Positions 35,790-43,266 of a DNA stretch of 64,000 nt are shown here, piece by piece (position 1 is the first letter of the stretch; each line of letters opens with the position of its first letter). Position numbers and translations under genes: made by a program. This stretch comes from Vulcanisaeta sp. JCM 16159 (lineage in GTDB: Archaea; Thermoproteota; Thermoprotei; Thermoproteales; Thermocladiaceae). Under the pieces are notes generated by a model, which made no database searches, was not told where the DNA came from, and saw only the letters and a list, made by a program, of their open reading frames with translations. The stretch is from assembly GCF_001316265.1 (NCBI RefSeq), contig NZ_BBDN01000006.1:62001-126000 (forward strand), read 5' to 3'.

Positions 35790-35884
35790 GCCCGGTAGCT
35801 CAGCCCGGTCGGAGCGCCCTGGGGCGAAAGCCCCGTGCAAGCCTCGTAAGCGGGAGGTCCCGGGTTCGAATCCCGGCCGGGGCT
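35790..35884 (+). tRNA. tRNA-Thr(CGT) with a non-canonical intron in the anticodon stem
   Basis: The D arm is GCTC...GAGC, the T arm is CCGGG TTCGAAT CCCGG, the 3' acceptor strand is CCGGGGC with discriminator T, and an encoded CCA follows at 35885. Removing 35820-35840 (21 nt, containing a GGGGC-GAAA-GCCCC hairpin) joins CCC to GC and forms a perfect 5-bp anticodon stem CCCGC/GCGGG. The loop is then CTCGTAA, so the anticodon is CGT (threonine). The intron sits between positions 29 and 30, not 37/38, as is common in Thermoproteales. The 5' acceptor strand reads GCCCGG where GCCCCGG is needed, so one C is missing, probably a sequencing error. Confidence 0.85.
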
Positions 35885-36483: not shown

Positions 36484-37038
36484 TCACGCGGTTTTACCCC
36501 TCAGTATCCTCATGACCTCCCAGTTTTTCGTGGGCTTTGTTTCTATCAATAATTCCCTAACCTCATCATTACAGGCGAGTAGGCCTTTACGGTGGTTTCC
36601 TGCCCGGTCCTTATTACGTATATGGTTGTGCCGCCCTGGACGACCTTATTCACCACGGTCTCATTATTGCCAGGTATTAATAACTCATTATCGAGGCACT
36701 CAGCCCTCACTATTGCCGCGTACACGGTTTTCATGAGCTCACTATACAATCGACTTATGATAACTGCACCAATGTGGGTGCACAACCCCCTGCTCTCGCC
36801 CCAGGCACTTACCTGACAATCGCAGGTGTATCTGCCGTTCACGAACCTAACCATGTACTGAGGCAGCTTGTCGCCCATTGACGGCTCACCCCTGACAACC
36901 CACGTATCACCACCCAAGGCCCTAACGCTATTGCTCAGGAATCTTCTGAGTGACCTCCTTACCCAGGACCTTGACTTGCCTGGTACCTAATCCTTAACTC
37001 CTCGATTACTGCCCTGATAACCTGCCTATCTATTCCAT
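36484..37038 (-). CDS. SWIM zinc-finger protein (two or three frameshifts)
   Basis: The core reads MVRFVNGRYTCDCQVSAWG...LCTHIGAV, the CxC...CxH pattern of a SWIM zinc finger, which binds DNA or protein. Upstream, other frames give GKSRSWVRRSLRRFLSNSVRALGG and DRQVIRAVIEELRIRY, so the gene probably starts at ATG 37038. Downstream, the frame changes near 36575 to ACNDEVRELLIETKPTKNWEVM, ending at TGA 36484. Corrected length is about 185 aa. Unknown role; in this setting it may be part of an accessory element. Confidence 0.6.
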
Positions 37039-37695: not shown

Positions 37696-37800
37696 CAGGG
37701 TTAAAATAGCAGAGATTTATAAATTTTACTCTAATAAAGAATAGAAACATCAGTGAAAGTATTGGTGAAGCATCTATTTATTAGTGGTGTGTTAAAGTTT

Positions 37801-37850
37801 GGGCAGGCAGAGTGGAGGTAAGATTATTCTCACCTCCACTCTTCAGGTCC
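37801..37850 (-). repeat. Palindromic repeat copy 1 (inverted orientation)
   Basis: The arms AGAGTGGAGGT (37809-37819) and ACCTCCACTCT (37832-37842) form an 11-bp hairpin around a 12-nt centre. Read on the minus strand it matches copies 2 and 3, including the centre GAGAATAATCTT and the flank CTGCCTGCCCAA. It lies 13 bp after the AbrB-like stop codon. Confidence 0.9.
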
Positions 37851-37863
37851 AAAAAATGTTCAA

Positions 37864-38253
37864 TTACTCAACATCTTGCTCGCCCTCACTCAATTCCTTA
37901 ATCTCCTCACCACCTTCCCTCTCACTCAGCTCCAGGTATATCAATGCCTCAACCTTATCCTTATTATTCAAGCCTAGGTTCTCTATTACGGTGGTTGGTA
38001 GGCTCGCACCGTACTGCGACTTGTGTATCCTCCTTATGTTTCCCTCATAGGCCATGTACCTATTATCCTTAAACAACCAAATCCTCACTGGCGCCCCATT
38101 CCTGAAGCCAAAGTACTTAACGGTGGTCGGCAGTGGTATGTAGGCATTAATCACCTTATACTCCCTATCACCAACCCTCCTACTACTCTCATAAATCCTA
38201 ACCCTAGCCCTAACCCAAACAGCATTACCAAAACCAATATCAAGCACAGTCAT
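37864..38253 (-). CDS. AbrB/SpoVT-like DNA-binding protein
   Basis: The protein has two swapped-hairpin-like halves: INAYIPLPTTVKYFGFRNGAPVRIWLF and, later, YGASLPTTVIENLGLNNKDKVEAL, both with the PxxxxxxLGxxxGDxV-like pattern of AbrB/MazE folds. The tail is very acidic. I start it at ATG 38253 because a TATA-like box lies about 25 nt before it; ATG 38295 would extend it through that box. The gene is enclosed by inverted copies of a palindromic repeat at 37801 and 38303. It probably binds DNA, perhaps the repeat itself (inference). Confidence 0.65.
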   Translation of the reverse strand: MTVLDIGFGNAVWVRARVRIYESSRRVGDREYKVINAYIPLPTTVKYFGFRNGAPVRIWLFKDNRYMAYEGNIRRIHKSQYGASLPTTVIENLGLNNKDKVEALIYLELSEREGGEEIKELSEGEQDVE

Positions 38254-38275
38254 ACAGTATAGCCAGGAAGGCCGC

Positions 38276-38283
38276 CTTAAATC
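38276..38283 (-). promoter_or_regulatory. TATA-like box for the AbrB-like gene
   Basis: On the minus strand ATTTAAG lies 23-30 nt before ATG 38253 and about 20 bp inside repeat copy 2. The spacing fits a leaderless transcript and puts the palindrome just upstream of the promoter. Confidence 0.45.
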
Positions 38284-38302
38284 CCTGACCATCATGCAGA
38301 GG

Positions 38303-38364
38303 TCGAGACTTGGATATGCAGAGTGGAGGTGAGAATAATCTTACCTCCACTCTGCCTGCCCAAC
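38303..38364 (+). repeat. Palindromic repeat copy 2
   Basis: Arms GCAGAGTGGAGGT (38318-38330) and ACCTCCACTCTGC (38343-38355) surround GAGAATAATCTT. The left flank TCGAGACTTGGATAT and the right flank CTGCCCAAC are shared with copy 3 at 43206, and both are followed by a TTCCCCAA word. Oriented opposite to copy 1, it lies upstream of the AbrB-like gene. Confidence 0.92.
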
Positions 38365-42375: not shown

Positions 42376-43169
42376 ATGCCAACATTGAGGTTTAGAGACG
42401 ATAGGCCAATGCTCGTAGGTGTTGTGCATTTACCGCCATTACCTGGCTCAATTAGGTATGGTGGGCTCGACCTAAGTACAATAATCGACTTTGCCGTTAG
42501 GAATTCCAGGACACTCGATGAGGTCGGGTTTGACGCAGTAATTCTAGAAAATTACAATGACTACCCATTCAGAGCCAGGGTTAGGGAGGCGGAGACCATA
42601 GCATCCATGGCGATAATAGCCAGGGAGGTCATTAGGTCGGTGAATATACCCGTCGGCATCAACCTACTAAGGAATTCAGGCCCCGAGCCGCGGCAATAGC
42701 AGCCGTTACCGGCGCATCCTTCATCAGGTCAAACGCTTACTGCGAGGCCATAGTGAGTGCCGAGGGGTTAATAGAGCCCGTGGCCAGGGAGGTCCTCGAG
42801 GTAATGACGAGACTCAACACTAAGATCACCGTGCTCGCAGACATATTCGTCAAGCATGCAAGCCCACTGCACAGGATGACCATCGAGGACGTGGCCAAGG
42901 ACTGCGTTGAGAGGGCCCTGGCAGATGCACTGGTGGTTACAGGCCCAAGGACAGGAGAACCACCAGACCCACTACTACTTAGGCGGGTCATCAAGACCGT
43001 AAACACGAAGGTACTCGTGGGGAGCGGCATAAACCCAAACAACATAGGCGATTACAGGGAGGCCCACGGCTTCATAGTAGGCACATACCTAAAGGACGAG
43101 GAGGGACAAATAGACCCCACAAAGGCCAGAAACATGGTAAATGCAGTAAAGGCTTTGGCAAAACCATGA
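42376..43169 (+). CDS. BtpA-family TIM-barrel protein (one frameshift)
   Basis: This is a BtpA/SgcQ family protein. The first frame has LVGVVHLPPLPGSIRYGG, GFDAVILENYNDYPF and IPVGINLLRNSGPE. A missing G near 42690 joins it to AAAIAAVTGASFIRSN and further to TKVLVGSGINPNNIGDY and GFIVGTYLKDEEG. Corrected length is about 265 aa. BtpA is linked to photosystem I stability in cyanobacteria, but the archaeal role is unknown. Confidence 0.85.
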
Positions 43170-43205: not shown

Positions 43206-43266
43206 TCGAGGCTTGGATATGCAGAGTGGAGGTGAGAATAATCTTACCTCCACTCTGCCTGCCCAA
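43206..43266 (+). repeat. Palindromic repeat copy 3 (solo)
   Basis: This copy is identical to copy 2 over the 38-nt hairpin core and nearly identical in both flanks (TCGAGGCTTGGATAT on the left, CTGCCCAAC on the right). It lies in the spacer between the BtpA gene and the winged-helix regulator gene, without an enclosed gene or a partner copy within several kb. Confidence 0.92.

Follow-up and report, generated by a model that had tools for sequence, protein, structure and literature searches.

Palindromic sites of a putative DNA-binding module lie at repeatedly exchanged chromosome junctions in Vulcanisaeta

Results

Dyad sites and genes at the locus

The window analysed here, a stretch of 64,000 nucleotides from the draft genome of Vulcanisaeta sp. 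JCM 16159, contains a gene for an AbrB/MazE-like protein framed by two palindromes, a third palindrome elsewhere, a neighbouring partner gene that we call d (its copy here is d1), and a small ORF resembling SWIM-type zinc fingers (Table 1). The original prediction had reported three palindrome copies, the first two in opposite orientation around a single AbrB-like gene. Both observations are borne out by three whole dyads with 34-bp cores starting at 37809, 38320 and 43223 (0 matches in 100 dinucleotide shuffles) and by the orientation of the cores of sites 1 and 2, which frame one AbrB-like ORF. The repeat had been described as a palindrome with arms of 11-13 bp and conserved flanks; the palindrome stands, but the conserved unit measures 54 bp, and the hexamers between its boxes are variable. 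Likewise, the count of three applies within the window, and the rest of the genome adds a fourth copy of the same class (class I; contig C4, 140066-140119) and two palindromes of a second class (class II; contig C5, 86000-86053 and 154260-154313), with a paralog of the partner gene, d2, at C5:86221. The AbrB-like gene most likely starts at 38253 (MTVLDIGFGN), because several relatives have no open frame over the upstream extension of the 143-aa ORF.

Table 1. Features of the module locus in the window.
Feature	Position	Strand	Description
SWIM-type zinc-finger-like ORF after d1	36546..36917	-	moves with d1 in class I loci
Partner protein d1, 206 aa	37075..37695	-	no Pfam/NCBIfam family; predicted Cas2-like ferredoxin domain (residues 53-115) and C-terminal helices
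Dyad site 1	37799..37852		junction d/g; partner-gene side to 3' side of AbrB-like gene
AbrB/MazE-like protein	37864..38253	-	tandem-half, RIFT-type barrel (predicted); 129 aa from conserved start
Dyad site 2	38310..38363		junction h/a; 5' side of AbrB-like gene to DsbA-like thioredoxin gene side
Dyad site 3	43213..43266		junction e/f; between btpA 3' end and next gene

Elsewhere in the window, btpA is split over two ORFs by an apparent frameshift (42376-43169), and nuo/antiporter-like genes at 39.8-41.7 kb are likewise broken; since the assembly is 63% complete, these are likely draft sequencing errors. A 95-nt tRNA, possibly intron-containing, at 35790-35884 was found by Rfam and missed by ARAGORN. 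It was the only Rfam match in the window, and the palindromes were unmatched.

A family-restricted motif with class-specific cores

The sites have the general form TTGG-N6-AGAGT-N24-ACTCT-N6-CCAA, in which the outer TTGG/CCAA and the AGAGT/ACTCT boxes are near-invariant. The TTGG and AGAGT boxes are common to all classes and the inner core is class-specific: GGAGGTAAGA for class I and CGCCGTAATTATA for class II in Vulcanisaeta, with a third core in the Caldivirga relatives (we infer that this second genus, g2, is Caldivirga). A search of the genome and its relatives for the core, as the original prediction had proposed, found the motif with exact arms in 10 of 398 Thermoproteota genomes scanned, all of them from the Vulcanisaeta/Caldivirga family, and a reversed-pattern control gave close to zero. 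When decayed and shorter versions are included, 12 of the 25 family genomes carry sites, at 2-6 sites per subclass per genome; another genus of the same family has a 50-bp version. In GTDB, the contigs with the class I core bear the names Vulcanisaeta distributa and Vulcanisaeta sp.

Sites are co-inherited with the partner gene

This raises the question of which protein belongs with the sites. In each of the six Vulcanisaeta genomes whose module is intact, the AbrB-like gene lies between a pair of class I sites separated by about 510 bp; it is absent from class II loci. By comparison, a search of 45 order-level and 81 class-level genomes recovered the partner gene d in exactly 10, all with sites; of the 15 family genomes that lack d, 13 are also free of sites. 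The two exceptions are G013, a 76% complete genome in which a site is present and d was not found, and G021, in which the AbrB-like gene is broken, d is absent and the sites are decayed. Moreover, the sites pair class for class with paralogs of d: in each of the six Vulcanisaeta genomes, d1 adjoins class I sites and d2 is found close to class II sites (next to one in five genomes and about 1.7 kb away in G019), and in the Caldivirga relatives a single d goes with a single AbrB-like gene and a single site class. The distribution of sites is therefore tracked better by d than by the AbrB-like gene. Of the earlier reading, an AbrB-like regulator with scattered operators, the outline of a protein plus its sites thus survives, but it is the neighbouring gene whose distribution agrees best with that of the sites. 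Both genes are under purifying selection, with dN/dS values of 0.12-0.17 for d1 and 0.04-0.12 for the AbrB-like gene. The SWIM-type zinc-finger-like ORF is an uncertain member of the module, and it was not seen beside d2. Small retropepsin-like ORFs lie near class II sites in G014 (contig L079, 6829-7116 and 4507-4875).

Chromosome junctions are exchanged at the sites

To describe the surroundings of class I sites across species, we labelled the flanking blocks a to f and the ends of the AbrB cassette g and h, with a slash for each junction. G014 and G015 have b/a together with c/g..h/d, and G017 and G019 have c/g..h/d with b next to a at a decayed site. The genome that holds the window (G000) and G016 have b/c and d/g..h/a, while G018 and G021 have b/c and a/g, with decayed sites. 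Block identity switches inside the palindrome or within a few bases of it, and the orientation of the AbrB cassette relative to d1 is flipped in two species. Misassembly is unlikely to explain these states, because single-contig genomes (G014 and G017 vs. G018) and independent assemblies display both forms of the b junction. In a tree from 9,775 concatenated columns, G000 and G016 are nested inside the b/a group, and the AU test rejects the topologies in which b/c arose by a single event (p = 2e-5 and 9e-34). Therefore, the same b junction has changed at least twice, in addition to the flip of the cassette; the changes fall exactly at the site and have happened more than once, as expected of a site-specific recombination site. 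Identical positions in all relatives, which the original prediction had named as an argument against mobility, are not what is seen; instead, the flanks of the sites have been swapped between species. Exchange is also seen at class II sites, where d2 is joined by block X in G000 and G016 and by block Y in G015, and Y joins Z in G000, G014, G016 and G019. Among the Caldivirga relatives, the block beside the module in G001 is found on another contig in G004, where it adjoins a site.

Over 20 kb, the window and G014 differ in gene order at only three points, namely sites 1 and 2 and the tRNA edge near 35884, and are otherwise collinear apart from insertions. The tRNA edge, a block boundary relative to other strains, is a rearrangement break away from the sites, and over longer ranges the genomes are more rearranged than the 20-kb comparison. 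A single 338-kb inversion between G014 and the window's genome was considered but found too little support: collinearity extends over about 83 kb in the c arm, but the d arm measures only about 1.5 kb, and the a arm is collinear to about 10.5 kb, then shifts in spacing and is unmatched at 25 kb. Because the a and d arms do not support it, we claim junction exchanges and no large inversion. Similarly, a strict polarity rule, by which an X arm is always joined to a non-X arm, fits 18 of 21 class I sites, with no X/X site, and is not claimed because the degenerate sites of G018 and G021 are unclear. In the module-less species G023, b and c lie within about 2.2 kb of each other (contig L185, 978-3216) with the gene beyond d between them, which suggests that the proximity of b and c is old.

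Could these exchanges be incidental? In the most serious alternative, d and/or the AbrB-like protein is an ordinary regulator that represses its own and a few other promoters, and homologous recombination between near-identical 54-bp repeats does the rest. Sites that immediately precede d, the AbrB-like gene and a thioredoxin gene would suit such a regulator; dyad symmetry without covariation between the arms (see below) is typical of operators, and within a genome the match between outer arms on the Y side extends about 18 bp past the unit, as from gene conversion. On the other hand, some sites have no obvious target gene, such as site 3, which follows btpA; a unit of 54 bp is much longer than one expects of an operator yet too short to recombine efficiently, and the junction changes involve several sites, both subclasses and a second genus. 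We regard a purely regulatory role as somewhat unlikely. The almost identical copies had also been taken to imply recent spread or strong selection; exchange and homogenisation between sites is a better fit than recent spread.

Predicted folds of the two proteins

The partner protein has no match in Pfam or NCBIfam. Its AlphaFold model (mean pLDDT 58.7, the first 51 residues being unreliable) shows a beta-alpha-beta-beta-alpha-beta arrangement at residues 53-115 followed by three helices, and the best 17 Foldseek matches of this low-confidence model are Cas2 or Cas2-like structures (probability 0.9-1.0, E from 0.013 to about 0.1). Profile comparison of d with Cas2 from relatives, done in three ways, was not significant (hhalign probability below 1%); in the best, non-significant alignment, the invariant Asp (D59) of an FDIPG motif falls on the Cas2 Asp. 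The genuine Cas2 of the genome is located elsewhere (contig C2). We conclude, with low confidence, that d may be Cas2-like in predicted fold only. For the second protein, the label 'AbrB-like' in the original prediction is supported by way of its relatives: four of nine aligned members, all distant, match Pfam MazE_antitoxin (PF04014; best E 6e-5), but the window protein alone does not match that profile. The AlphaFold model is a barrel of two AbrB-like halves (pLDDT 79.6), with PHS018 among its fold matches. No recombinase signature was found in either d or the AbrB-like protein.

This pair of folds brings to mind a toxin-antitoxin system, in which d would be a VapD/Cas2-fold nuclease, the AbrB-like protein a MazE/AbrB-fold antitoxin binding operator palindromes, and the scattered sites secondary. 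VapD-like toxins share the Cas2 fold (PMC11980593), MazE has the AbrB fold, and D59 is invariant and positioned as the conserved Asp of Cas2 and VapD. However, the two genes do not form one operon as in VapD/MazE-type systems: they are divergent in most relatives (the Caldivirga relatives, G014, G015, G017 and G019), d2 lacks an AbrB-like companion, and VapD is about half as large as d. Such a system is, in our judgement, improbable here.

Sites decay together with the module

In G018 and G021, where the module is broken or lost, the sites are decayed, which argues that they are maintained by, or for, the module. The b-a spacers of G017 and G019 contain decayed remnants (12-bp exact core, matched in 0 of 500 shuffles; 3 of 500). 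A search for empty sites with target duplications gave no clean example: the spacers of G017 and G019 hold these remnants, and G020 and G022 are without the whole module between c and the gene beyond d, with no site remnants seen. Half palindromes broken near the dyad centre, which could mark cut or decayed sites, are present in Caldivirga relatives including G001, and in G021 (contigs L037, about 1385-1420; L038, at its end; L178, about 6665).

These data bear directly on the earlier suggestion of a MITE-like, non-autonomous mobile element, with the palindromes as ends of the unit and solo copies as footprints. A gene framed by paired copies, the existence of solo copies, the half-sites in G001 and G021 and the lack of the module in G020 and G022 would all fit, but the copies are few, the linked genes are not transposases, target duplications were not seen, and the sites recur at the same junctions and decay with the module. 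An origin from a virus, plasmid or phage was rejected as well, as the class I core and both proteins have no match in viral contigs, and d has none in plasmids or phages. A mobile element of this kind is therefore very improbable.

Arm variation fits putative protein half-sites

Within subclasses, the arms at variable positions match no more, and mostly less, than random pairing predicts; the observed match is 0.14 vs. 0.47 expected at class I position 26, and 0.00 vs. 0.26 at class II position 7. Such uncompensated differences argue against a hairpin and for protein-bound half-sites, so that an RNA or DNA hairpin (terminator, small RNA or cruciform) without a dedicated protein has very little to commend it, despite a thermodynamically very strong predicted hairpin (z = -8.2), because variable arm positions are not kept complementary, TTGG/CCAA is fixed across unpaired hexamers and the sites follow a protein gene.

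Discussion

The explanation that we marginally favour is a small DNA-binding module, consisting of d with or without the AbrB/MazE-like barrel, that acts on dedicated 54-bp dyads serving as exchange points. Its parts differ in strength. The comparisons show the site family, its co-inheritance with d, the pairing of site classes with d paralogs, and the repeated exchange of junctions at class I sites together with the cassette flip. That this is a dedicated DNA-binding module with its own sites is likely, and the data suggest a site-marking DNA-binding system that was previously undescribed; in the open-access literature searched, we found no paper combining Vulcanisaeta with palindromes and inversion, or Cas2-like proteins with AbrB and archaea. 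The chances that d or the AbrB-like protein takes an active part in the exchange are about even at best, with passive recombination between repeated operators close behind; ordinary recombination between short repeats could be the exchange route, and this counts against our explanation.

Mechanistically, the module would make one or two putative DNA-binding proteins, the Cas2-fold-like d and, in most lineages, the AbrB/MazE-like barrel. Alone or with its partner, d may dimerise on the dyad, each subunit contacting one half-site, and bound d might hold two sites together or nick them, after which strand exchange would be carried out by module proteins or the recombination machinery of the host. 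Both d and the AbrB-like gene are probably also autoregulated through the copies that precede them. A bolder version, which we put forward tentatively and consider rather unlikely, is that an orphan Cas2-fold-like protein and an AbrB-fold barrel recognise class-specific dyads, join them and promote reversible exchange of segments and flipping of the module's own regulator cassette, and that paralogous systems within a genome each use a site class of their own.

If d or its partner does drive exchange, a non-CRISPR Cas2-fold-like protein would be a site-specific player in chromosome rearrangement, which would be relevant to how Cas2 was recruited as the helper of an integrase. Even with passive exchange, two d paralogs and two site classes constitute a natural experiment in protein-DNA specificity, and exchange at the sites explains recurrent rearrangement points in Vulcanisaeta, a genus with little known genome biology.

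Several known systems resemble parts of the module. In partition and anchoring systems of the parS/ParB type, a locally encoded DNA-binding protein is served by several dyad sites close to its gene and by a few far away, an arrangement that the module resembles; it has, however, no ParA-like ATPase. With MITEs and REP elements the sites share short imperfect palindromes in spacers, several per genome, but they are low-copy, lie at orthologous junctions, and have neither target duplication nor a transposase partner. The predicted beta-alpha-beta-beta-alpha-beta fold of d, with an invariant Asp ending strand 1, places it near the Cas2/VapD ferredoxin-fold superfamily; in contrast to those proteins, d has no significant sequence or profile match, is 206 residues long, carries three long helices and an additional N-terminal segment (in a low-confidence model), and is not beside cas1 or CRISPR in the loci read. 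The AbrB-like protein recalls the AbrB/MazE/SpoVT swapped-hairpin and RIFT cradle-loop barrels by its two AbrB-like halves and the MazE match of four relatives, but it has both halves in one monomer, its DNA binding is putative, and its gene is always accompanied by d in intact loci. Finally, unlike invertible segments and dif/Xer-type exchange, the module has no linked tyrosine or serine recombinase and its changes are seen between species rather than within a culture; what it shares with them are short dyad sites at changing junctions and a small cassette between opposed sites, found in both orientations.
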